From positions 1 through 46,872 of the forward strand of contig DSAB01000056.1 in NCBI GenBank assembly GCA_011388275.1: DNA of 46,872 nt, in the 5' to 3' direction. A program made the translations under genes and the position numbers. The notes under the pieces are model-generated. The model saw nothing but the letters and a program-made list of their open reading frames with translations. It was not told the origin of the DNA and did not search any database. Positions 14,006 through 34,937 of this stretch are shown piece by piece (within the stretch, counting starts at the first letter, position 1; each line of letters begins with the position of its first letter). The stretch is from a bacterium. Its GTDB lineage: Bacteria; Zhuqueibacterota; QNDG01; DSAB01.

Positions 14006-16633
14006 TCACTTCTCCCCGTACAGACTCTCCCACCACTCCGGCTGATCCTTGAGCCAGCGGTCGAACCAGGCCAGAATGGTCTTGGTCCACTGAATCCGCT
14101 TGCCCTTCTGCATGATATGATGGTTCTGGCCTTCCACCTGAATCAATTCCACTTCTCGCCCCAGAAGCTTCAAGGCCGTGTACATCTGTATCGACTCTCC
14201 CGGCGGCACGTTTGTGTCCACAGCTCCATGGAGCAGAAGCAACGGTGTGTGAATCCTGTCCGCGTTGAAAAGAGGACTCTGATCCACGTACAGATCCCGC
14301 CGATTCCAGGGAAAACTGTTCGCCGAGGCAATGGCACTGTACAGGTATCCCCAATACCCTTCTCCCCAATAGCTGGACAGGGAGCTGATGCCCGCGTGAG
14401 AAACAGCGGTTCGAAAGGATTTGGTCTGTGTTATCAGATACATCGTCATGAATCCGCCGTAGCTGGCTCCCATGCATCCCACCCGTTTCGCATCCACAAA
14501 GGGATGCGCTTCCAGAAAACGGCGGGTCCCTTCGATGATATCGTCTGAAGTCAGCCTGCCCCAGTCATTGACATGCAGGGCGGAAAACTCCTGTCCGAAT
14601 CCGACCGCTCCGCTCGGCTGAAGCACATAGACCACATACCCCATGGCCGCGTAAAGCTCCTTGGGATACCGTCCGCCGAAATCACGGGTCACCGGCGTGG
14701 TTCCCCCGTAATAATACACGATACAGGGGTATTTCTTTCCGGGATCGAAATCGACCGGATAATACACATGCCCTTCGATCTCCACGCCCCGGTGATTGAT
14801 AAAGGTCCATTCCTCCACGCGGCCGAATTGAACCCTGCGGAAATTCTCTGCAGCCGGATCGGACAGAACCCGGAAACGGCGGCGCCTGAGATCCATGATA
14901 TAAGCCCTTCCGGGCTGATTGGGTCCGGAGCCTGTGTACACGACCGTACGTTCCTTTTCAGCCAGATCAAACCCTTCCAGAACATCAACTCCCGTCTCAA
15001 GTTTTACAAACTCTCTTTTACCGAGATCATAACGATACACGTGTACGAAAGAACCCTCCGTCACGCTGAGATACAGGCAGGGTTCAATACGGCTCCACAC
15101 GGCCTGATTCACCGAGGGGTCAAAATCACGGGTAATGGGATCGATCGAGTTTGTCTTGAGATCCACAATAAACGCCTGAGTGTCGTAGTCATTGGGAATC
15201 CTCTCCTCAGGCAGATTCCTTCCGATCCCGTTGAAGGATTCAGGACCTCCTGTAACCAGCAGTTTGTTTTCATCCGGCCCCCACTGCACCATCTTGATCC
15301 AGGGACTCGACCACAGGGTATCCGTTTTCATTGTGTTCAGGTTCAGCATAAAGAACTCGCTGTATACGTAGGGTCTTTCGGAATACTCCTGATGCTGACG
15401 CGAGAAAATCAGAAGGGAACCATCCGGACTGATGGAGTGAAGATAGGTGCTCATCTCTCCAGCGGTCAATCGCTGCCGTGTTCTGTCCTGAATGTTCAGA
15501 CGATACAGATAACTCTGATTCCTGAAACCCGGCCAGCGGTCGGGCATCCCCCGAAGCCGCTTCAGCCCTGTCTGATCTTCTTTGGGTTTTTCGGTTATGC
15601 TGTAGACGATGAAGGATCCGTCCGGCGACCATGCGTGACCGCCGAAATCTTCAACACTCTCAAGAAGGGGCATCGATGTTCCCATGTCCAGATCAACCAG
15701 CCAGAGAGTGCTTTTTTCATCATGAGTCGTATAGGTAAAACGGCGGCCCGAAGGAGCCCATTGGACGCCGGAAATCCGCATACCGCCTCGAAATGTCTGA
15801 ACCAGCCCGCCGTCACGCACCCGGCGAAGCTCCAGCCACGATTCTGACTTGTCCCCGAGTGAAAGACTTCGGGTGATGGAAGAAGCCGCCAGATCACCCT
15901 GGGGCGAGACAGAGACTCCTGTGATCTGAGGACTGTCCAGCAGACGGGAAAGAGTCATGTACTGTTCAGGCTTGATCGTGAGATTGGCATCCTCTTGTGT
16001 CCAGTCTTCCGGAAAACCGACCGAGACTCCCACATCCCAGCTCCCCGGGCAGGCGGGATCACGAAGAGCCTTGATCAGCACAAGATGCTTTCCGGTTTCC
16101 ATTTTCAGTGTGCGGGAGACCTGTCCTCTCTGAGGATTGCCGTCTCCCTCAAAGCTGTCTGAGGTGTTTTTAACGCCCTGCGAAGCGCCGTCTATGAAAA
16201 CCTCCAGGAGATGATGGGACTGAATAATCCACTCGATCTCACCGAAGCGATTCAGCTCCAGGTAAAAGGCCAGATAGGCCAAATCCGGGTTTTCACCGGA
16301 CTGGGCTGGCAGACGGATACCGAGAGTATCGGTTTGCACGGGCCGCCAGACGAGCCTGTTGCGGTTCCACGGAACGCCGCCGCCCTGTTCAGGAAGCCAA
16401 TGCCGGGTATCGAACTTTTCAAAGGCCAGGAGTTCTTTTAATCCCCAGACATTGCCCTGTACTCCCGGGTCTTCATGAAACGCGGGAAGCATCACGGGAA
16501 CAGGCCCGATTTGAAGCCAGGTCTGAACCCTTCGATTCGTCCTGGGCCGGTCACCCCCGGTACGGGCAAAACTTCCCATACAAAGGAAAAGAGCGAAAAA
16601 GCATGCGATTCCCAAAGACCGATTCGAGCGCAT
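14006..16633 (-). CDS. secreted S9 family prolyl oligopeptidase-like peptidase
   Basis: This is an 875-residue protein. A signal peptide (MRSNRSLGIACFFALFLCMG) is followed by a long N-terminal part with WD40/TolB-like beta-propeller blades (WSPDGSFIVYS, ISPDGSLLIFS). The C-terminal alpha/beta-hydrolase domain (about 630-870) has the catalytic triad of S9 peptidases: Ser in GCMGASYGGFM, Asp in LLHGAVDTNVPP and His in EGQNHHIM. It probably removes dipeptides or acyl-peptides in the periplasm. AAAGGAG lies 7 nt before the ATG. The gene follows the photolyase gene by only 11 nt. Confidence 0.93.
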   Translation of the reverse strand: MRSNRSLGIACFFALFLCMGSFARTGGDRPRTNRRVQTWLQIGPVPVMLPAFHEDPGVQGNVWGLKELLAFEKFDTRHWLPEQGGGVPWNRNRLVWRPVQTDTLGIRLPAQSGENPDLAYLAFYLELNRFGEIEWIIQSHHLLEVFIDGASQGVKNTSDSFEGDGNPQRGQVSRTLKMETGKHLVLIKALRDPACPGSWDVGVSVGFPEDWTQEDANLTIKPEQYMTLSRLLDSPQITGVSVSPQGDLAASSITRSLSLGDKSESWLELRRVRDGGLVQTFRGGMRISGVQWAPSGRRFTYTTHDEKSTLWLVDLDMGTSMPLLESVEDFGGHAWSPDGSFIVYSITEKPKEDQTGLKRLRGMPDRWPGFRNQSYLYRLNIQDRTRQRLTAGEMSTYLHSISPDGSLLIFSRQHQEYSERPYVYSEFFMLNLNTMKTDTLWSSPWIKMVQWGPDENKLLVTGGPESFNGIGRNLPEERIPNDYDTQAFIVDLKTNSIDPITRDFDPSVNQAVWSRIEPCLYLSVTEGSFVHVYRYDLGKREFVKLETGVDVLEGFDLAEKERTVVYTGSGPNQPGRAYIMDLRRRRFRVLSDPAAENFRRVQFGRVEEWTFINHRGVEIEGHVYYPVDFDPGKKYPCIVYYYGGTTPVTRDFGGRYPKELYAAMGYVVYVLQPSGAVGFGQEFSALHVNDWGRLTSDDIIEGTRRFLEAHPFVDAKRVGCMGASYGGFMTMYLITQTKSFRTAVSHAGISSLSSYWGEGYWGYLYSAIASANSFPWNRRDLYVDQSPLFNADRIHTPLLLLHGAVDTNVPPGESIQMYTALKLLGREVELIQVEGQNHHIMQKGKRIQWTKTILAWFDRWLKDQPEWWESLYGEK

Positions 16634-19887: not shown

Positions 19888-21660
19888 TCAATCTCCCCAT
19901 TGGGCGGAAATACTGATCGCGCCGACACCGGCATGCGCACCGATCGTGGGTGAAATATCCATGACGTAATCCGCCTTGATTCCCAGACGTTTCTCGACCT
20001 GCTCCCTGAATGCCAGCGCGCCGCCTTCATTATGGGCGTGGCCCAGAGCCAGCCGTCGTATGGGTGTTTTTCGATGCTGTTTTTCCAACATATCGATGAT
20101 TTTTTTCCGGTTGGATTTCTCGCTGAAAGCCTTTCCGGTCAGATCCGATACACCGTCTTTAAGCGAAACAATGGGTTTCAGATTCAGAATTCGGGCCAGG
20201 ACTCCTTTCAGCGGACTGACACGCCCGCCGCGGACCAGGTATTTCAGAGTGGGCACACTGACAAGAATCTTTGACCGGGGCACGGCACTCCGAACGGCCA
20301 TAAGGGTCTCTTCATGGGTCAGCCCCTTTTCCAGGGCTTCAGCCGCGTGCAGAACGATCAGGCCCTGAGCGGTGGATAATTGTCTGGAATCGATGACCGT
20401 GATTCTTCGCCGGTTCACGCATTTTGCGGCCTTCCGGGCCGCGTCACAGGTTCCGCTGAGACCGGAAGAAATATGAATGGAAATGACCGATTCATAGTGT
20501 TCCAGCAGGAATCGATACATCCGTTTGAACGTCTGCACAGCAGGCTGAGATGTTTTCGGAAAATCGGATAACTCGTCCAGCATGGTATAAAACCGGTCCG
20601 CGCTCAGAGTCGATTTGTCCAGAAACTGATGAGATCCGAAACTCAGATGCACGGGAATCATGTGAATCTGATACCGGTCCATCAGGTGCTGAGGCAGATC
20701 ACAGGCCGAATCGGTGAGCAGAGCGACCGGAGACAGGCGTTTGAACCGGGCTTCGACCTGTCGTTTCATGTCATCGACTTTTTGATCCTGCAGGTTCCCC
20801 AAAGACCGCAGCCGATAAAACAACTCGGCGGGATCGTCGGTGTGAATATGCACTTTAATCTGTCTGGAAGAGCCCGCCACAATGAGCGAATCGCCAAAAG
20901 GATCCGCGATGCGGCGAATCTCCTCCGGATCCATGTTCTCGCCCTGCAGCACGGCCTCCGCGCAGTACCGGAGAGTCACGGCTTCATGCGGTTCGTGGAT
21001 CGTTTCTTCCAGAACCATTTCCTGTTCCACAGCCGTGTCGATTTGAGAAGGATTCTTAAAGAACTCCAGCAGCCCTTCGATAAAATGGACGAACCCCTGA
21101 GCCCCTGCGTCCACAACACCGGCTTCACGAAGGACCTTAAGCTTTTTTGGCGTCTCTTTCAGGGACATCCTGGCGGCATCGAGCGAATGCGAGAACAGGT
21201 CCGTGAAACTCTCGGTTTTCGAATGCATGGCCTCCAGTGCGTTGGACCAGGCTTTCATCACCGTAAGAATGGTTCCCTCAACCGGCTTGCTCAAAGCGCG
21301 GTAGGCTTGTTCGACCCCGTTTCGGGCCGCTTCGGCGAAATCATGGGTTAAAAGAACCTTCTTGTTTTTCATCGATTCGCTAAGACCGTGAATGAACTGG
21401 GCGAAAATGATTCCCGAATTTCCCCTGGAGCCGGAAAGAGCCGCCTCGGCCATGCTGCGGCTAACATCGGCGACCGAATCATTCTGAGGGGGCTTCTTGA
21501 CAATGGCGTGTATCGTGGAAACCAGATTCGTTCCGGTGTCTCCATCCGCCACGGGAAACACATTGATACGGTTCAGATGAGCCATATGGGCCATGACTCT
21601 TTTTCTGCCGTGATAAAAAGCGTAAAACAGTTTCTGACCATCGATATGGTCTTTTTTCAT
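19888..21660 (-). CDS. DhaL-DegV fusion (FakA-FakB-like fatty-acid kinase)
   Basis: This is a 590-residue protein. Residues about 5-190 are a DhaL/DAK2 kinase domain with the Mg-ATP site VFPVADGDTGTNL and GSRGNSGIIFAQF. About 200-305 resemble the middle part of FakA. About 310-590 are a DegV domain (LLTDSACDLP, KTSQPAVQTF, ISIHISSGLSGTCDAA), the fatty-acid-binding fold of FakB. In firmicutes FakA and FakB are separate and make acyl-phosphate; here both are in one chain. The ATG at 21660 has AAGGGAGA before it, and an excellent promoter lies at 21798-21826. It leads the DUF1295-TspO-ferritin-photolyase-S9 group. Confidence 0.9.
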   Translation of the reverse strand: MKKDHIDGQKLFYAFYHGRKRVMAHMAHLNRINVFPVADGDTGTNLVSTIHAIVKKPPQNDSVADVSRSMAEAALSGSRGNSGIIFAQFIHGLSESMKNKKVLLTHDFAEAARNGVEQAYRALSKPVEGTILTVMKAWSNALEAMHSKTESFTDLFSHSLDAARMSLKETPKKLKVLREAGVVDAGAQGFVHFIEGLLEFFKNPSQIDTAVEQEMVLEETIHEPHEAVTLRYCAEAVLQGENMDPEEIRRIADPFGDSLIVAGSSRQIKVHIHTDDPAELFYRLRSLGNLQDQKVDDMKRQVEARFKRLSPVALLTDSACDLPQHLMDRYQIHMIPVHLSFGSHQFLDKSTLSADRFYTMLDELSDFPKTSQPAVQTFKRMYRFLLEHYESVISIHISSGLSGTCDAARKAAKCVNRRRITVIDSRQLSTAQGLIVLHAAEALEKGLTHEETLMAVRSAVPRSKILVSVPTLKYLVRGGRVSPLKGVLARILNLKPIVSLKDGVSDLTGKAFSEKSNRKKIIDMLEKQHRKTPIRRLALGHAHNEGGALAFREQVEKRLGIKADYVMDISPTIGAHAGVGAISISAQWGD

Positions 21661-21797
21661 GGGAAATCTCCCTTTGTAAAGTTCCAAACCGGTCATTCAG
21701 GGGGTAAAAAATGGTTCTGATTATCGTTTTCTCCAGCCCGGCTGCTTCTCATTCTGAAATCGTTTGCTTATAAATCCCTCGAATAAAACATTCTTTT

Positions 21798-25285: not shown

Positions 25286-26569
25286 TCAATTCCGCTTTCT
25301 GAATTTCTCAAACAGTTCGGTATCCTTTGTCTCAAGAGAAACCCTGTTCCCTTTTATGAACAGATACCGTATCTGCGTCCGCATCTCAAGAATATCTCCA
25401 TCCGTTACCACCACATTGGCCAGTTTTCCGGGTTCCAGGCTGCCGATCCAGCGGTCAACCCCGAAAATCTGGGCGGGATACAGGGTGACGCCCTTTAACG
25501 CCTCGTCACGGTCCATGCCGAAAGCCGCGGCTGTTCCGGCCTGATAGGGCAAATTTCGGGCGTCCGCAGCGCTTCCGGTCAGAAAGGCCACTTTCACCCC
25601 GGCTTTGCTGAGAATCCCCGGATTGGCGTATATCGCGTCATAGGGATCCCGGGGTCCCACGGACCGGAAAAGAGACCCCACCAGAACAGGGATATTGTTC
25701 TCGCGAAGCAGATCCGCCACCTTCCAGCCTTCGACCACGCCCTGAAAAACAGCGCGTATGCCGGTCTCCCTGACGAATGCCACGGCATTCTCGATGTCTT
25801 TTGCCGTGTTCACACAGATAATTGCGAGCCGTTCACCCCGGACAAGCGGAATCAGCGCCTCGAGCATGACATCATGAAGAGGAGCTCTCAGGCCGGGATC
25901 TTTATAATGGGCCCCGATCGCATCGGCATAACGTCCGGCCTTGAGAAGCAGATCTTTCAGGCCTTGTATCTGTTCCTCGGTCCGCTTTTCCGTCGGTGTC
26001 TCCCCTCCGCGGCCGCGTCTCCGTGAGCCTGATGGCGAAGGCAAAGCGGGAAAGTTAATCCGCATCGCGATGGAGGGTTCCAGAACCATTTCATGAGCCG
26101 TCCACCCGTCCAGATTGATCAGGGCGCACTGACCGGACACCACGCCACCGTCCGGCGCAACCAGTGCCGTGGTGATCCCGTTCACCCGGGTAACGGGTAT
26201 ATGCACCGAATGGGGATTGATCGCCGCGATCGCCCGTATGTGGGGATTGTAAAGACCTGTTTCGGTCACGTCCACAGTGGCCTGAACGGCCCCTACTTCG
26301 GTCAGGCCCAGAGTCGAGAAAGCATCGATGAGGCCGGGATAGACCCATAACCCGTCTCCCTCAATAAGGGATGCATCGGCGGGGATGACGGCATCCGGTC
26401 CCAGTGATTCAATAAAATCTTCACGGACAATCAAATGACCTTTTTCAACGACCGGTCCGCTCACCGGAATCAGCCTGGCACTGCGAATCGCCCAGGTTTC
26501 ACCCGCAGCGGGAACAGCCAGCGTCAATAACAGGCCGATAATACCGTTGAAGATATGATTTTTTTTCAT
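25286..26569 (-). CDS. amidohydrolase-fold protein lacking metal ligands (no. 3)
   Basis: This is a 427-residue secreted protein (signal peptide MKKNHIFNGIIGLLLTLAVPA). It has the composite amidohydrolase fold: LIVREDFIESLG and GLWVYPGLIDA at the start, and GVDRWIGSLEPGKLANVVVTDG at the end. The metal-site residues are missing: DAFSTLG replaces the DxHxH motif, the later histidine positions read IICVN and FQGVVEGW, and the aspartate position reads LTGSA. It is therefore probably a non-catalytic paralogue. It closely resembles the gene at 27924-29627 and lies next to the intact gene at 26612-27931. GAGGATCC precedes the ATG. Confidence 0.88.
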   Translation of the reverse strand: MKKNHIFNGIIGLLLTLAVPAAGETWAIRSARLIPVSGPVVEKGHLIVREDFIESLGPDAVIPADASLIEGDGLWVYPGLIDAFSTLGLTEVGAVQATVDVTETGLYNPHIRAIAAINPHSVHIPVTRVNGITTALVAPDGGVVSGQCALINLDGWTAHEMVLEPSIAMRINFPALPSPSGSRRRGRGGETPTEKRTEEQIQGLKDLLLKAGRYADAIGAHYKDPGLRAPLHDVMLEALIPLVRGERLAIICVNTAKDIENAVAFVRETGIRAVFQGVVEGWKVADLLRENNIPVLVGSLFRSVGPRDPYDAIYANPGILSKAGVKVAFLTGSAADARNLPYQAGTAAAFGMDRDEALKGVTLYPAQIFGVDRWIGSLEPGKLANVVVTDGDILEMRTQIRYLFIKGNRVSLETKDTELFEKFRKRN

Positions 26570-26611
26570 GAGGATCCTCTTTGATTTCATGCGTTTTCCT
26601 GAATACTTGGC

Positions 26612-27931
26612 TCACTCACGGGATTCCAGCATTCCAGCCGCTGTAGCAACGTGATTTATGTCGAAATAGATCTCGCCCTCGATGAGCGTCATCTCCACTC
26701 TGGAATAGACACTCAGCGGATGCCCGTTGAAAATGGCCAGATCGGCATCCTTGCCCGGTTCAATACTGCCGACCCGGTCATCAATGCCGAGCATGATCGC
26801 CGGATTCAGCGTGATGGTCTTCAAGGCCTCGAGTTCGGACATGCCGCCGTATTTCATGGTTTTGGCCGCATCCATATACAGACGCCGAACCCGTTCTCCG
26901 CTGTCCGAGTTGATGGTGACCACCACGCCGTGAGCAGTCATGAGCGCGGCATTGTATGGAATGGCATCAAACGCCTCCATCTTGTAGGCCCAGGCATCCG
27001 AGAAAATGGACGCGATCGCGCCGTGTTCGGCCAGTTCCGCGGCGATTCGGTATCCTTCCAGACAGTGTTCGAAAGAGCCCACCTTGAATCCCAGTTCATC
27101 GCCCAGGCGCATCAGCATCAGCATCTCGTCGGCCCGGTAGGCATGACAGATAATGGTCAGTTTGCCACGCAGAATATCGGCCAGAGTCTCGAGCCTCAAA
27201 TCACGGCGGGGAGGCATCAGATTCTTTCGGTTCTCCCAGGGTCCCGGCTTGATCTTTCCGGCTTTCCTGGCTTCATACTCTTCCCAGCGACGCATGTAAT
27301 CCCGGGCCTCGGTAAAGGCGAGCCGTATGGTTGCCTCGATACCCATGCGTGAATTCGGAAAGGGATCCTCCGCGCGAAGTCCGCCGACCCGTTTGGGATT
27401 CTCACCGAGCGCGAATTTGATGCCCCATCGAACATTCTCGAGAAGAAGTTCCTCGGCCGGTTTTCCGAACTTGAGTTTGATGACCGCATTCCGGCCGCCG
27501 ATCACGTTGGCACTGCCGTGCAACGTGTTGACGACCGTTACGCCTCCGGCCAGGGCTCGCTGAATGGTAATATCATCCGGCCGAATGACCTCGTGAATGT
27601 TGATCTCGGGCGTGACCTGCCCCGTGGCCTCATTGATTCCTCCTTCCGAAGCCATATGAGAATGGGAATCGATGATGCCCGGCATCACGGAGAAGCCGCT
27701 CGCATCGATCACGCGTGCCGCGGCGGGAACTGAAACCGAATTGCCCACCTCCTGAATTTTCCCGTTATGAATCAGGATGCTGCCCCGATCAAGGGTCTCC
27801 CCGGTGATTGTGAATATCGTCGCGTTTTTGATGAGCAGAACCTCTCCGCTTCCCTCGACAAAGAGCCCGCCGTAAAGAGTCTGAAATCCCGTCACAAGCG
27901 TCAACCAGAATGTTGTCATTGTTTTACTCAT
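26612..27931 (-). CDS. secreted amidohydrolase with intact metal site (no. 2)
   Basis: This is a 439-residue amidohydrolase of the imidazolonepropionase-like group. It keeps all recognisable metal ligands: IIDSHSHMAS (HxH), IICHAYRADEM, SFEHCLEGY and the aspartate in TINSDSGERV. The C-terminal GSIEPGKDADLAIFNGHPL is typical. An N-terminal hydrophobic stretch (MTTFWLTLVTGFQTLYGG) may be a signal peptide. A dipeptidase or cyclic-amide hydrolase activity is possible; substrate unknown. The ATG overlaps the previous gene by 8 nt, with GGAGG inside it, so the two are co-translated. Confidence 0.92.
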   Translation of the reverse strand: MSKTMTTFWLTLVTGFQTLYGGLFVEGSGEVLLIKNATIFTITGETLDRGSILIHNGKIQEVGNSVSVPAAARVIDASGFSVMPGIIDSHSHMASEGGINEATGQVTPEINIHEVIRPDDITIQRALAGGVTVVNTLHGSANVIGGRNAVIKLKFGKPAEELLLENVRWGIKFALGENPKRVGGLRAEDPFPNSRMGIEATIRLAFTEARDYMRRWEEYEARKAGKIKPGPWENRKNLMPPRRDLRLETLADILRGKLTIICHAYRADEMLMLMRLGDELGFKVGSFEHCLEGYRIAAELAEHGAIASIFSDAWAYKMEAFDAIPYNAALMTAHGVVVTINSDSGERVRRLYMDAAKTMKYGGMSELEALKTITLNPAIMLGIDDRVGSIEPGKDADLAIFNGHPLSVYSRVEMTLIEGEIYFDINHVATAAGMLESRE

Positions 27932-29627
27932 GAATGCCTCCGAAAATAGCCGTTGATTCATTCCGGATATTGAATTCCATCCCGGGTTTTTCACCGCTCC
28001 AGCCGGCCTGTCCCATGGGCCCCATGTCCAGAGTGCCTTTCACGGTGTTTCCGGTGACCGTGCCCGTGAAATAGAGATCAACAGGCTGAGGCCCGAGGGG
28101 CAGTGACACCGTGAAATCAAGGGTATTTCCGCTGACAACCCCGTTTCGAATCTCGACTTCCCCCATGGGACTGACCATTCTTCCGGTCAATGTCTCTTCT
28201 TTCTGGGAGAGTATCAGAGTAAAGGGCTGTTCTCCATCCGGGGTCACCGCCTTGCAGTCCCAGCGCCCCGTGACGTCCACTTCGGCTTTGGCAGGCGTCT
28301 TTTTGGATTCCTCGATCCTGAATTTCTCCCCATCGATGAATACAAACCGCGGAAGCGCTTCCTTGTCATGCCACTCCCGGTTCATGATCACCAGATTGGC
28401 GATTTTCCCGGCCTCGATGCTGCCCAGCTGTTCCGCAACACCCAGGAGTTTGGCCGGGCGGATGGTCATGGATTCGAGAGCCGCGTTCGCGGGCAGGCCG
28501 TGCTCTACCGCCTTCCGAATATTTTTAAGAAAGTCGCTTCCGGAAGTCCCCCATGAACCGAATCCATGAAGTACACCCGCCTCATTCAGAGCCGCTCCGT
28601 TGGCATAGACATCCACCCAGGGTTTTTGCTCCTTCCTGATCGTGTCCTTGCGGGTTTCGGCTGTTTTTCCGGCTCCGCCGGGCAAAGGATCGGTTTCGAG
28701 AAGCCAGGCGTATCCGGTTACTTCCTCGGGTTTTGGATAATTCACGGTCATGATCGCGGGCAGATTCGCTTCCCGAAGGCGGTCGACGACCCGCCACCCC
28801 TCGTTGACTCCGCTGAGAATGGGCTGCAGATTGAATTCAGCCGCCAATTTCAGGGCCCGCTTGATTTCATTTTCCGTATTCACCTGAATGATCAGGGGCC
28901 GGATTCCGTCAAAAACCGGAAAGATCGCTTCCAGAGGCTCATTGACGGTCGGCCGCCGAATACCCCGTTTCTGCTGCTCATACTGGCGCAAAAGCCGCTG
29001 ATGGTGCAAAGCGTCCAGAAAAGTCTGCCGCTGAAAGGCGATGACAGCCATCAGAGTATTGGGATATTGTCCGGGCTGCCTGTCGTATCCCATATGCAGA
29101 CCCACCGGTGATTTCACGACCATGGAACGGGCATCGGCTCCGGCCAGATTGATCAGAGTGCTCTGGCCGATGAATACACCGCGCGGCGGAATGGTCAGCA
29201 CCGTGGTCACGCCCTGATTGCGCATTTTGTCGATACTCTGATGGTCCCGATCCAGCAGGCCGGCGGCCCTGATATGAGCGTCCGAAAGCGGGATTCGCAA
29301 GCTTCCGTTTCCTGCGGCCCCGGCACTTTCCGGCGCTTTCAGTCCGATGCTGCCGTGCGCGTCGATGAATCCCGGATAGACCCTTAACGTATCGGCTTCG
29401 ATAATCTCGTAACCCGCAGGAATGTTTATATTCGTCCCAACCGCCTGAATGATGCCGTCCTGAATCAGAACCACCCCGTCGACTTTGCCCCGGGTCACGG
29501 TGTGAATGTGCCGCGACCGGATCGCGTACCGATCCATGTCATCGCCATGGAGCATATTCATCAGGACGATGAGCCCTATTCCTGCCGCCTGGATGAACCA
29601 GCGGCCTGTCAGCCGAGTATTGATCAT
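27924..29627 (-). CDS. amidohydrolase-like protein with degenerate site and C-terminal domain (no. 1)
   Basis: This is a 567-residue secreted protein with an N-terminal hydrophobic segment (WFIQAAGIGLIVLMNML). The amidohydrolase fold is clear (VYPGFIDAHGSIG, GSIEAGKIANLVIMN), but the metal site is degenerate. DAHGS keeps one His of HxH, while the other positions read IIQVN, SGVNEGW and TSGSD. About 455-560 form an extra beta-rich, lipocalin-like domain (VTGRWDCKAVTPDGEQPF, GRMVSPMGEVEI). AAGGAGAGG precedes the ATG at 29627. It is a paralogue of the gene at 25286. Confidence 0.88.
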   Translation of the reverse strand: MINTRLTGRWFIQAAGIGLIVLMNMLHGDDMDRYAIRSRHIHTVTRGKVDGVVLIQDGIIQAVGTNINIPAGYEIIEADTLRVYPGFIDAHGSIGLKAPESAGAAGNGSLRIPLSDAHIRAAGLLDRDHQSIDKMRNQGVTTVLTIPPRGVFIGQSTLINLAGADARSMVVKSPVGLHMGYDRQPGQYPNTLMAVIAFQRQTFLDALHHQRLLRQYEQQKRGIRRPTVNEPLEAIFPVFDGIRPLIIQVNTENEIKRALKLAAEFNLQPILSGVNEGWRVVDRLREANLPAIMTVNYPKPEEVTGYAWLLETDPLPGGAGKTAETRKDTIRKEQKPWVDVYANGAALNEAGVLHGFGSWGTSGSDFLKNIRKAVEHGLPANAALESMTIRPAKLLGVAEQLGSIEAGKIANLVIMNREWHDKEALPRFVFIDGEKFRIEESKKTPAKAEVDVTGRWDCKAVTPDGEQPFTLILSQKEETLTGRMVSPMGEVEIRNGVVSGNTLDFTVSLPLGPQPVDLYFTGTVTGNTVKGTLDMGPMGQAGWSGEKPGMEFNIRNESTAIFGGIHE

Positions 29628-29718
29628 AACTCCTCTCCTTACTACATTGAAAATGGGTGTTTTTTCCAATCAGGTTGCTGTATTCCGAATCCAGGAAGCG
29701 GAAATGACGTGAACAATC

Positions 29719-31941
29719 CTAGCGCATCAGAATCCATTTGCGCACTTCAACCCGGGTACCGGATTCGAACCGGCATACATACACGCCGCTGGGCAGATGA
29801 TCGCCGCGGTACCGGACTCGATGCGTTCCGGCCGGCCGCAGCCCTTCATCCAGGAGGGCCACCCGCCGGCCCGTCATATCATACAGACCGATACGAACCC
29901 TGGCCGGCCGGCTCAAATAATAATCCATGCGGGTTTCGGCGTTGAAGGGATTGGGAACGTTCTGTTCCAGCCGGAACACCGGTTCCATACCCGTATTGTC
30001 CGCCTGCACACTCGTGATTCCGTTCCGGAACACGACATCCATGCTGTCTGTGCTGCTGTTTCCCCATTCATCGCGGGCTTCCACGTAGAACCGGTAGGGT
30101 CCGTCGGGATAATCAGCCGTGGCAAAGGCCCGGTCCTCCTCCTGAAGAGTCAGACAGGTGTCTCCGTCGTCATGAGTCAGAATATGATAATAGTTCCGGT
30201 TCAAAGACATCCACGAGCTCGCGCGCAGGTTGTCATCCTCCCTGTAGAGAATCCGGGCATAGGGAGTGTACCAGCTGCTCGCGTAGAAAGGATAGGCGTG
30301 ATTCAGCCGATGACCCGTAGTGCGCGGAAAGATGAGCGCGCGATCCGGCAGGCTGCGCACCCAGTAATACGTTTCATAGGCCGGCTGCTGCCAGGGTGAA
30401 TCGCCCACATAATCGTGCAGCTTGACGATCAGATCCACATCGCCCCAAAGGCTGTCCGGATCGAGATAGCTCCAGTTCATGTTGTTCGTAAACAGCATTT
30501 TTCGGCCCGGCCGCACACTCGAAAAGACCGGCGCCGTAAAATCCGAATCCGGAGCCATGACCAGAAGAGGATTGAAATTGATGCCCCATTCGCCGTCGTC
30601 ATACCGCCATATGAGACCGTGATCCCGAATATTGACAAAATGGATATGCCCCCAGTCCTGATACCACTGCACAATGTCCCCCAGATAATCGTAACGCGAC
30701 ACGGCGTCGCCCACATCCACCTGAATGCTCCCTTCGACGAGATGGGCGTAAAGCCACCCGTCGCTCACGCCAACGGTCTGTATCGGAGACACCGCCAGCC
30801 GCCAGTACTTCTCACCGCCCAGGGTCAGCACGCATTTGACGAATCCATCCTCCACCGCATAAGTGGGTTCGTTCTCCGGCACGATGAGATCCAGTCCCTG
30901 ATGCAGATAGGTGTACGTACCGGCCCCCATATGCTGTTCGTAGTAATTCCAGACCGTGGGCATTTGGTCGAAAGGCTGAAACATCCAGGGAAGCGCGTCT
31001 TCCTCTCCCTTTTTAAGACTTTTCCCGTCCGGCCGGCGAACCGAAGGCAGATCCCGCCTTGCCCCGTGAATCTGTTCCAGCAGAAAGCCGGACGAATCGA
31101 ACCGGTAGACGAATCCCTGAGAAACCGTCTCGGTTCGTTCGTGAACGCCCGCCTCCCAGCCGGATTCCGCGGCTCGAAGATCCCGAAAAGACAGGGGTTC
31201 GGACAGAGCCAATTCACCCTTTGTTTCGAAACTTTCCCCGTCGTAAATGGTAAAACCGTGTTTATCGATGACCCCGATCCGTTTTCCGTCTTTCGACCAG
31301 CGAACCCGCCGAATGAATTGCGAATCGAGCTTTATCGATCCGGTGAGGCGGCCGTTCCGGTACACGGACAGCGTGCTCTCTCTCGTGAGCACCACGGCGT
31401 CACCCCCGGCATCGAAATCGAAACGGTCGGCTTTGGGAAGAAGCAGCCTGGCTCCTGTTTCGGGATAGAGCACATGAAAACCGCTTCGGTCGCCCACACC
31501 GAAGCGGTTTCCCGAAACCGAAAAGCCGAACAGACAGGCGCCGTGAAAGGTATCCGATAAAAGAAGCCGGCCCCGGCGGTCCACGAAATGCAGGGTCAGC
31601 TCGCCCCGGTCATGCCTCGCGTGATCCATGAACACCATGACACCGCTGTTGGAGATCATGAGGTCCGAACCCGGTACGATTTTCATCGTACAGATCAGCC
31701 GGCCGTGTTCATAGAGGCGAAGATTCTCCAGAATCCGTATCTCATCGGTGACGGCGGTCACGTCGTATTGCGCTCCGTAGCGCTGATTGCCGGACCAGAC
31801 AGAATAGTCCGGATTCGAAGGCATGGACAGGAACACGCCGTTGAACGAAACCGCGCCTTCTCTTGCCTGGACCGGCTGATTTTTTACGAAGAGGATTAAA
31901 ACAATCAATCCCAAAACAGGTTTTCCAAGAAAACGCAACAT
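29719..31941 (-). CDS. secreted M23-type metallopeptidase-domain protein with type IX sorting domain
   Basis: This is a 740-residue protein with a signal peptide (MLRFLGKPVLGLIVLILFV). A beta-propeller-like N-terminal half is followed by an M23/LytM-like domain (about 330-460) with all four expected ligands: YLHQGLDLIV (H, D), WLYAHLVEG (H) and WGHIHFV (HxH). The C-terminus (about 660-740) has LEQNVPNPFNAETRM, LYDMTGRRVA and LPSGVYVCRFESG, the type A sorting domain of type IX secretion. It is probably exported to the cell surface. Substrate unknown: peptidoglycan or protein. Confidence 0.88.
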   Translation of the reverse strand: MLRFLGKPVLGLIVLILFVKNQPVQAREGAVSFNGVFLSMPSNPDYSVWSGNQRYGAQYDVTAVTDEIRILENLRLYEHGRLICTMKIVPGSDLMISNSGVMVFMDHARHDRGELTLHFVDRRGRLLLSDTFHGACLFGFSVSGNRFGVGDRSGFHVLYPETGARLLLPKADRFDFDAGGDAVVLTRESTLSVYRNGRLTGSIKLDSQFIRRVRWSKDGKRIGVIDKHGFTIYDGESFETKGELALSEPLSFRDLRAAESGWEAGVHERTETVSQGFVYRFDSSGFLLEQIHGARRDLPSVRRPDGKSLKKGEEDALPWMFQPFDQMPTVWNYYEQHMGAGTYTYLHQGLDLIVPENEPTYAVEDGFVKCVLTLGGEKYWRLAVSPIQTVGVSDGWLYAHLVEGSIQVDVGDAVSRYDYLGDIVQWYQDWGHIHFVNIRDHGLIWRYDDGEWGINFNPLLVMAPDSDFTAPVFSSVRPGRKMLFTNNMNWSYLDPDSLWGDVDLIVKLHDYVGDSPWQQPAYETYYWVRSLPDRALIFPRTTGHRLNHAYPFYASSWYTPYARILYREDDNLRASSWMSLNRNYYHILTHDDGDTCLTLQEEDRAFATADYPDGPYRFYVEARDEWGNSSTDSMDVVFRNGITSVQADNTGMEPVFRLEQNVPNPFNAETRMDYYLSRPARVRIGLYDMTGRRVALLDEGLRPAGTHRVRYRGDHLPSGVYVCRFESGTRVEVRKWILMR

Positions 31942-31990
31942 CGGGCCTCCCTTTGAACCCGGGCAATCCATTTCATCCGATCCGCTCGCC

Positions 31991-34135
31991 TTATCGCAGC
32001 AGAATCATTTTCCGGGTCAGAATCTGTGAAGGTGTCTGCATCCGCAAAAAATACAGCCCGCTGCTCACGGCCCGGCCCGAAACATCACGGCCGTCCCATC
32101 GCACTTCATGCCGTCCCGCTTCGCAAGGTCCCTGATACAGAACCGCGACACGCCGGCCGGACGTGTTGTAAACCGCCAGTGTGATGGAAGAAGGCGAGGA
32201 AATTTCAAAAAACACCCTTGTCCCGGCGTTGAACGGATTGGGATGATTCTGCGCGAGAGTGAAACGCAGGAGCAATTCGGACGGATCCTCTTTGACATGC
32301 GTGGTCTCAACCAGATCCATGGTGACGGGCACGGTAATGATGGATGAAGCCAGCGTATTGACCTTTATTCGAATGCGCCCCTCATAATGTCCCGCGGCCA
32401 TTCCATGGGTGTTCGCGATGACGGACAAATCCACATCTCCCAACGGGCCGATCCGCCCTACGGAGACCGGGGCCCTGAGCCAGCCGGCCGGCTTGCTGCC
32501 GTATCCCTTGACCCGCATACCCCCGGTTTCATCCGCGGAGTTCTCGAACAGTGTTGTCCCCCCGTCATAAACATGAATATCGTCCACCAGAAAGCCGATC
32601 AGTTCCGGATCGTCCAGTGTGCAGTAGCCCATATCGGAAGCGAAAGCGAAACGGATCACCGCCTGGGAACTCTTGAAGGATGAAAGATCGAAGTCCGCTT
32701 CGGTCCAGCCGTCCAGCCAGCCCACCCATCCGGGAATCCAGTTTCCCATGTTCCATCCCTCGGTCGCTTCGCCGAAAGACCACAGGCTCTCGGCGTTGTA
32801 TTCCGGGGCTGTGGGCCGAACGACCGAGAAATTGGATCCTCCGTCCGTGGAAACCCACACATTGCAGCCATCCCAACCGTCCCACCCCGGCGGTTCGCCG
32901 CCGGGCTCTTCCACCACATAATAGACCTGAAAGGAAAGCCGCGGAGAGGTCGTTGACGACAGATCGATAACCGGGGTATCCAGATACTGAAGCACGTGAT
33001 TCTGATATCCGCCGATGGCCGAATCGCCGCACCACCAGGACATGCCGTCATAGCTGTGCCGGTTTGAGGCATGCCAGTAGACCGGTACTTCATCATTGAA
33101 CAGCGTGTACTCCACGCCTCCGCTTCCCGTATTCTCCAGGTTCAGAGTCAGCGCGAGCGTATCTCCCGCATTGCCGGAGAATGCCAGTGATGACGGCGTC
33201 ACCCGCAGTGGATTGACGTTCAGAACCTCATCATAGATAAACGGCATATACTTTCCGATACCGCAATTTCCCCATTTGATGCGGAAATATCCGTTTTCGC
33301 CCCAGTACGGCCCCCAGCTGTTCTTGCAGGTCCAGGAGGAGTCCGCGTCGTTCCATCCCACGATGAGCACCGCGTGACCGGTCAGTCTCTGACCCCAGGC
33401 ATATTCATAAACCCCGCCCGAGTACCAGTAAAAATCCTCATAAACGATATAGGAGGCCGATACGGGATGATACATCAGCGCGTTCTTGATGTTCTCCACA
33501 GTGGGCTCCTGCAAGGTGATGTACCCCCAGCCTGCGATGCTCTCGGCGCGTGACTGCCAGTCCGCGCAGCTTTCCGAGCATAATTTGTCGTCTCTGCCCG
33601 CGTACGGAAAGCACGTTTCGTCCGGAATGCCGTAATAGACCGCGTAGTCCAGGGCGTCTTCGATATATCCCCCCTGCTCACAGTTTCCGGTTGCCACACA
33701 GCTGAGCACATGCTGTTCGGAAAGATCGATCTCCGTCAAAGGAGAATCATTGTAAATTTTCCACCAGCTTTCGATCTGGGCCGTGGCCGAAAATATCCAG
33801 CAGCTGCCGCAATTGCCCTGGTTTTTCACCGATGTCAGCCAGTCGCCGTCATGATTCCGCCAGTCGAACGAAGCGGGCAGCTCCGCGGCCGCGGGAGGCA
33901 GTTCGATTTTTCTTTCCAAAGCCTCCTGCGGGCTGCGCGGCCCCGGCCGGGTTCCGAGCAACGCCCGCTGACCGGCCGAATCGAGGCGGGTCACCCAGCT
34001 CTCGCCGGCCTGCCACGACGCATTCTGCCGCTTGATGGCCCGGCGCACGGATTCGATGTCGATCCGTTCCTGGGCCGCCAGGGGCAGAAGCATCACAAAA
34101 AACAGAATGGCGGTCAGTCTTTCTCGTTTACGCAT
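31991..34135 (-). CDS. secreted C1A papain-like cysteine peptidase with type IX sorting domain
   Basis: This is a 714-residue protein. A signal peptide (LTAILFFVMLLPLAA) is followed by a propeptide and a C1A catalytic domain (about 100-320): QGNCGSCWIFSA (catalytic Cys), LTGHAVLIVG (His) and CKNSWGPYWGENGYF (Asn). A long beta-rich region follows, then a C-terminal sorting domain with LAQNHPNPFNAGTRV and SSGLYFLRMQ. It is an extracellular or surface protease. The ATG at 34135 is 6 nt after GAGGAG; longer in-frame starts lack such a site. Confidence 0.95.
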   Translation of the reverse strand: MRKRERLTAILFFVMLLPLAAQERIDIESVRRAIKRQNASWQAGESWVTRLDSAGQRALLGTRPGPRSPQEALERKIELPPAAAELPASFDWRNHDGDWLTSVKNQGNCGSCWIFSATAQIESWWKIYNDSPLTEIDLSEQHVLSCVATGNCEQGGYIEDALDYAVYYGIPDETCFPYAGRDDKLCSESCADWQSRAESIAGWGYITLQEPTVENIKNALMYHPVSASYIVYEDFYWYSGGVYEYAWGQRLTGHAVLIVGWNDADSSWTCKNSWGPYWGENGYFRIKWGNCGIGKYMPFIYDEVLNVNPLRVTPSSLAFSGNAGDTLALTLNLENTGSGGVEYTLFNDEVPVYWHASNRHSYDGMSWWCGDSAIGGYQNHVLQYLDTPVIDLSSTTSPRLSFQVYYVVEEPGGEPPGWDGWDGCNVWVSTDGGSNFSVVRPTAPEYNAESLWSFGEATEGWNMGNWIPGWVGWLDGWTEADFDLSSFKSSQAVIRFAFASDMGYCTLDDPELIGFLVDDIHVYDGGTTLFENSADETGGMRVKGYGSKPAGWLRAPVSVGRIGPLGDVDLSVIANTHGMAAGHYEGRIRIKVNTLASSIITVPVTMDLVETTHVKEDPSELLLRFTLAQNHPNPFNAGTRVFFEISSPSSITLAVYNTSGRRVAVLYQGPCEAGRHEVRWDGRDVSGRAVSSGLYFLRMQTPSQILTRKMILLR

Positions 34136-34196
34136 TTTCATCTCCTCGGGTTTCTCCGATTGGTTCATCCGTATGGGCCCTCCAGAAAAATCGGGC

Positions 34197-34937
34197 TTAC
34201 TCTTTCTGAAGGCTGCCGGTTTCCTCCCGCTGCCTGCGGGCTTCGAAGAAAAAAAGAGCCGCCGCCACAGACACATTCAAAGAGTTGATCCGTCCCCGCA
34301 TGGGCACGGAGGCCAGAAAGTCGCAGTGTTCGCGGACCAGACGCCTCAGTCCTTCGCCTTCGCTTCCCAGTACGATCGCCGCAGGCCCCCTGAAATCCAT
34401 CTCCGCATAGGATCGGGGTGCATCTTCACAGGCGCCCACCACCCACAATCCCTCTTCTTTCAGGTATTCGAGACACCGCGTCAGATTGGTCACACGCGCG
34501 ACGGGCACATGCGCCGCCGCTCCGGCCGATGTCTTGAAAACCGCGGGTGTCAATGAAACGCCGCCTTGTTTGGGAATCACGACGCCATGCACACCGGCCG
34601 CGTCTGCGGAACGAAGAACCGCCCCGAAATTACGCGGATCCTGAACTCCGTCGAAAATGACCACAAGGGGAGGTTCGCCCAGTTTTTGGGCAGAATGAAG
34701 TATATTTTGAGGTGAACGGTATTCAGGAAGATCCACTTCCAGAGCGATATTTTGATGAGCGGCACTGCCCGTTAAAGCGGTCAGTCTGCCGCGGCTCATG
34801 CTCTGTACGGGCAAAGCGAGCTTTTTTGCCAGATTGACAAGGGATTCCGAAGCATCGGCTGTTAAAAGAGTCCGCGCCGGCAAACGGGCTTCCAGCCATT
34901 CCCGAACCGCGTTCTTTCCGTAAACAACGCCTTTCAT
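34197..34937 (-). CDS. rlmB: 23S rRNA 2'-O-methyltransferase RlmB (TrmH family)
   Basis: This 246-residue SPOUT methyltransferase is expected to methylate G2251 of 23S rRNA. The N-terminal L30e-like substrate-binding domain (GVVYGKNAVREWL) is followed by the trefoil-knot domain with the three SPOUT motifs: NFGAVLRSADAAGVHGVVIP, IVLGSEGEGLRRLV and IPMRGRINSLNVSVA in variant form. Length is normal. The ATG overlaps the flavin reductase gene by 4 nt. Confidence 0.94.
   Translation of the reverse strand: MKGVVYGKNAVREWLEARLPARTLLTADASESLVNLAKKLALPVQSMSRGRLTALTGSAAHQNIALEVDLPEYRSPQNILHSAQKLGEPPLVVIFDGVQDPRNFGAVLRSADAAGVHGVVIPKQGGVSLTPAVFKTSAGAAAHVPVARVTNLTRCLEYLKEEGLWVVGACEDAPRSYAEMDFRGPAAIVLGSEGEGLRRLVREHCDFLASVPMRGRINSLNVSVAAALFFFEARRQREETGSLQKE

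Follow-up and report, generated by a model that had tools for sequence, protein, structure and literature searches.

The described protein closest to the three tandem genes considered here, N, M and C, is TM0814 of Thermotoga maritima (PDB entry 3ooq), a structural-genomics target that all three match best in sequence and fold and that has the same five-ligand pattern as M; unlike the trio, it carries no apparent export signal, and its nearest relatives seen are single genes without partners. No paper on TM0814 was found in the open-access literature. Imidazolonepropionase (HutI) and the prolidase-like or arginine carboxypeptidase amidohydrolases (Cc2672, 3mtw; eah89906, 3n2c) belong to the same superfamily and share similar ligand spacing and amide-bond chemistry, but the trio scores far below their curated cut-offs (for M, 61 bits with the HutI profile NCBIfam TIGR01224, whose cut-off is 298), and to our knowledge the HutI, Cc2672-type and eah89906-type enzymes are homo-oligomers without pseudo-subunits. 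MetalloBSH of Bilophila wadsworthia is, like the trio, a large exported member of the amidohydrolase superfamily, of about 945 amino acids, with a PF07969 catalytic domain and an extra C-terminal domain (PMC13081902); no pseudoenzyme copies are described for it, and it was set aside as the same system because of the differing architecture described (PMC13081902). Finally, the aspartate transcarbamoylase (ATCase) of Pseudomonas aeruginosa requires for its activity an inactive pseudo-dihydroorotase (pDHO) subunit, and the pDHO domains are without zinc ligands (PMC7053772).

The window, that is, the whole stretch of 46,872 nucleotides analysed, carries three tandem amidohydrolase reading frames at the places given by the initial annotation (25286, 26612-27931 and 27924), and these are transcribed from the minus strand in the order N, M, C (ORFs 27924-29669, 26612-27994 and 25286-26590). 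The features of the trio are the following.

27924..29627, minus strand: N subunit (gene 3, first of the trio), a degenerate protein of amidohydrolase fold, predicted exported, with ligand columns H-S-Q-G-W
27927..28280, minus strand: beta-strand domain of about 110 amino acids at the C-terminal end of N, predicted from the sequence and the secondary structure of a fused relative
27924..27931, minus strand: ATGAGTAA, overlap of the N stop and the M start, with GGAGG just upstream
26612..27931, minus strand: M subunit (gene 2), a predicted intact metal-dependent amidohydrolase, TM0814/3ooq-like, predicted exported
27656..27664, minus strand: M ligands HxH (DSHSH), from the alignment
27143..27145, minus strand: M ligand His (ICHAYR), from the alignment
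27065..27067, minus strand: M ligand His (FEHCLEGY), from the alignment
26903..26905, minus strand: M ligand Asp (NSDSG), from the alignment
25286..26590, minus strand: C subunit (gene 1), a degenerate amidohydrolase, predicted exported, with ligand columns F-T-C-G-G and a probable start at 26569

The best starts by Shine-Dalgarno sequence are the ATG at 29627 for N, the ATG at 27931 for M (GGAGG) and, for C, the ATG at 26569, which is likelier than that at 26590, and a purine-rich ribosome-binding site precedes each chosen start. Translational coupling of N and M is likely, because the stop of one and the start of the other overlap in ATGAGTAA with GGAGG just upstream. Amidohydro_1 is the Pfam match of each of the three proteins, and all have a hydrophobic N-terminal stretch that, read by eye, resembles export signals. 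The terminal beta domain of N found no match in the Pfam search; in fused relatives this domain sits between N and M, and in the model of one of them its strands occupy residues 467-564.

Only the middle gene retains a metal site, as had been proposed from the motifs. The three proteins can be aligned over the whole barrel, since 3ooq is the best PDB match of each (E-values of 2e-32 for C, 1.6e-66 for M and 7e-24 for N), and the alignment of M spans its residues 53-443, the barrel from end to end. With 3ooq as the anchor of the alignment, M alone shows HHHHD in the five ligand columns, and those of N and C are degraded; the initial motif readings were correct, with the nuance that N keeps the first His, its sole remaining metal ligand. 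Metal ligands at shifted positions in genes 1 and 3 are excluded, as the full-length 3ooq alignments fix the positions, and the ligands of both proteins are absent at aligned, unshifted sites. Among the aligned homologue domains, the complete HHHHD was present in 64 of 64 complete sites of M, in none of the 39 patterns listed for N and in none of 55 for C; two domains caught by the M profile (L051_443 and L116_66) are degenerate pair partners and were tallied apart from M. In place of the second late His, 95% of N and 80% of C have Gly. N and C are almost certainly inactive.

The pairwise scores (147 bits for C-N, against 113 for M-C and 76 for M-N) agree with the earlier statement that the degenerate proteins resemble each other more than the intact one, and in the wider tree, which like the others was a quick tree without bootstrap, a branch with an SH-aLRT of 94 groups N and C of the trio apart from all M. 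When the ligand columns were removed, the clades had SH-aLRT values of 100 (N), 100 (trio-M), 96 (trio-C), 100 (duo-M) and 99 (duo-C), and by these comparisons N, M and C are best read as ancient paralogues. Across the 96 domains of the wider tree, the metal site switches between complete and incomplete four times, and all four changes are forced by strongly supported branches; the losses fall in the large N/C group, in the third gene of L123, in the second gene of L124/L125 and in the second gene of L126, which points to at least four separate losses beside an intact tandem copy in the wider family. Intact, half-decayed and fully split-role pairs all exist, since a tandem pair with both genes intact (L133) was seen along with the clusters that have a degenerate member.

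Several of these relatives differ from the trio in composition. L123 (4419-7819), in a small genome of 1.4 Mb, is a different amidohydrolase trio with two intact members and one degenerate, the product of an independent loss, and L124, L125 and L126 are TM0814-like pairs with one degenerate member and without an obvious export signal, the second copy of L126 being half decayed (HHCYD). A three-domain relative at L051 (6605-10381) has another order, an intact-degenerate fusion followed by a second degenerate gene, and an M14 carboxypeptidase adjoins it.

Homologues were searched for in 82 genomes from the phylum of the window and in 388 genomes of relatives, and the C and N profiles were run over the same 388. 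With the co-occurrence counted by hand and E-value cuts separating trio-type copies from more distant ones, trio-type M was found in 49 of the 388 genomes, accompanied by N in 46 and by C in 47 of them, so the trio is not confined to the window; by the profile searches, 48 genomes have trio-type C and 46 have N. In the three genomes lacking N (L034, L048 and L079) M lies at a contig end, and the two gaps in C correspond to a contig end (L075) and to a masked stretch (L122); in L129, C stands at a contig start and no M was found. The commonest layout is a single ORF of about 1000-1150 amino acids containing N and M, followed by a separate C of about 450 amino acids, the N-M fusion occurring in about 30 genomes, whereas N and M are separate in the window, in its nearest relatives L052 (a KSB1 MAG) and L075, and also in L085, L087 and L088. 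M and C are fused, with N separate, in L101, and all three form a single chain in L082 (1482 amino acids) and L100 (1417 amino acids). Both junctions are thus known split and fused, and the order is N, M, C throughout. The recurrence of the same three ligand states in dozens of genomes makes the pattern more than chance, and co-occurrence, order and fusions together indicate that, genetically, the active and the inactive chains are obligate partners.

Outside the trio, M-C pairs are found adjacent (L107, L108, L109, L111 and L121, the last from Qipengyuania citrea) or fused (L106 and L127), and TM0814-like singletons without a partner gene are also found (L112, L117 and L134-L139). In genome G276, C lies on another contig (L128, 2329-3609) than the N-M fusion and is still kept. 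On the Hymenobacter volaticus plasmid NZ_CP095062 (L120, 6311-10511) the trio is split into several frames and C is shortened, through either decay or sequence errors.

Purifying selection acts on N and C, with dN/dS values (NG86, seven close pairs) of 0.08-0.24 for N and 0.07-0.15 for C, and 0.03-0.13 for M. They also have conserved columns of their own: at a level of at least 90% of one residue, C has 63 columns, 30 of them different from the M consensus, and N has 43, 14 of them different; the conserved motifs include GGxDAW and RNLPYQA in C, and RQTFLDA and RGSGxEY in N. Low dN/dS and private conserved columns together argue that both are proteins with a job, and not relics.

The AlphaFold2 (AF2) model of a fused N-beta domain-M chain (L040, 31 sequences) reached a pLDDT of 85.2 and a pTM of 0.83, and since a whole-chain pTM near 0.5 is estimated for two halves without a predicted arrangement, the N and M halves appear firmly placed in the model, bearing in mind that pTM is a whole-chain number and that AF2 may arrange homologous domains after the pattern of known homodimers. 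In a Foldseek search, this model matched 3ooq with a TM-score of 0.89 over one barrel. For the fused M-C chain of L101 the pTM was 0.68 with a thin alignment of 13 sequences, five of them covering C, and the M-C packing in that model is suggestive only.

In our view, the three genes encode, with a probability of about 0.7, one exported amidohydrolase assembly composed of a catalytic M and two pseudoenzyme subunits, N and C. In such an assembly, M would be the metal-dependent catalyst, and N and C, descended from the same barrel and subsequently deprived of the metal site, would pack against M and build, stabilise or gate the cavity that holds its active site. The separate N, M and C chains of this organism would then associate, M would require N and C for its activity, and the reaction would be an amide hydrolysis, possibly of a peptide-like substrate, outside the cytoplasm. 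M probably needs the "dead" copies as partners, because the trio, often fused, recurs in dozens of bacterial families; the counter-evidence is that relatives of M exist alone, and since these TM0814-like singletons lack partner genes, members of the M family do not generally need a partner. The suggestion of the initial annotation that one catalyst and two pseudoenzymes may form a hetero-complex gains strong but indirect support from the conserved order, the fusions, the near-complete co-occurrence, the purifying selection and the N-M model.

The new conserved residues in the old pocket of C, namely GG at the second late His, then DAW/EGW, and RNLPYQA near the Asp position, together with the conserved RGSGxEY and RQTFLDA of N, would also fit a different role, in which both are exported binding proteins whose dead pocket holds the same ligand, for delivery or sensing, and which form no stable complex with M. 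This seems rather unlikely, given that the chains are covalently fused in various arrangements, even N, M and C together in a single protein, and that N packs confidently against M in the AF2 model. The strong purifying selection and the retained fold could likewise be those of enzymes with a metal-free or rebuilt active site; however, no alternative catalytic set is shared, and the ligand positions vary freely save for that of the second late His, where Gly is nearly invariant, which makes enzymatic N and C very unlikely.

The gene neighbourhood could be taken to place the trio in a single peptide-degrading system with the adjacent tricorn and two sorted peptidase-like proteins, as the gene that directly follows C on the same strand, starting about 80 bases away, is the tricorn, and some duo or trio loci have peptidases or peptide transporters close by (an M16 pair near L107; M14 near L051, L081, L101 and L119; SBP_bac_5 near L110 and L133; a POT transporter near L121). 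Nevertheless, the tricorn was absent from the relatives' trio loci examined, and clustering of neighbours across the trio loci revealed none that is conserved, so the association with tricorn, C1 and M23-type proteins was dismissed as a conserved feature, the functional link proposed initially was not sustained, and a joint system is scarcely probable. Neither was there peptidase enrichment near the trio, with two S9 and two M20 among 98 neighbours of trio loci, and a peptide-like substrate is for this reason only a weak lead from gene context. A defence role was dismissed, as PADLOC gave no match.

Other genes of the window, all on the minus strand, include a 602-amino-acid protein (19888-21696) with Dak2, a FakA-like middle domain and DegV, which resembles FakA and the fatty-acid-binding FakB in one chain; an S9 prolyl oligopeptidase (14006-16633); a C1 papain-like protease with a FlgD_ig/T9SS-type tail (31991-34276); and the "M23-type" protein (29719-31971), which has a T9SS sorting tail and HQGLD and HIHF motifs recalling M23 peptidases, without a Pfam M23 match.

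That N and C are decaying duplicates merely travelling with M, as the loss of their metal sites and the faster evolution of N than of M might suggest, can practically be dismissed, pseudogene decay being largely refuted by dN/dS well below 1 and intact open frames, along with invariant residues and upkeep in dozens of families.

Beyond the assembly of catalytic M with inactive N and C, a live enzyme with one or two dead paralogues could, tentatively, be a recurring enzyme design here, to which tandem duplicates gave rise on at least four occasions; its N-M-C form would be an exported machine of wide distribution, in which the dead barrels make up or gate a chamber that takes a large substrate; we regard this wider idea as possible but doubtful.

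No description of the trio, or of pseudoenzyme or tandem amidohydrolases of this kind, was found in the open-access literature, and the trio is apparently a widespread exported protein system undescribed so far. In most annotations its proteins carry just the label "amidohydrolase family protein", and automatic annotation would call all three active. One and the same family includes enzymes that stand alone, pairs of two intact members or of one intact and one dead, and trios of one intact and two dead members, with the metal site lost independently several times, which makes the group a natural setting for testing why enzymes retain dead copies. Among the known systems, the ATCase-pDHO complex offers the nearest parallel in function, as in both cases a subunit of amidohydrolase fold has lost its metal ligands (zinc ligands in pDHO) and is, or in the trio would be, required by its partner. 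The active partner in that complex is an unrelated transcarbamoylase, whereas in the trio it is a paralogue, with two pseudo-subunits and predicted export, and no transcarbamoylase partner gene of the ATCase-pDHO family is a conserved neighbour at the trio loci. The trio is therefore best regarded as analogous to the ATCase/pseudo-dihydroorotase complex, and not as a member of it, and would add a new, widespread variant to the known cases of enzymes that have pseudoenzyme subunits.
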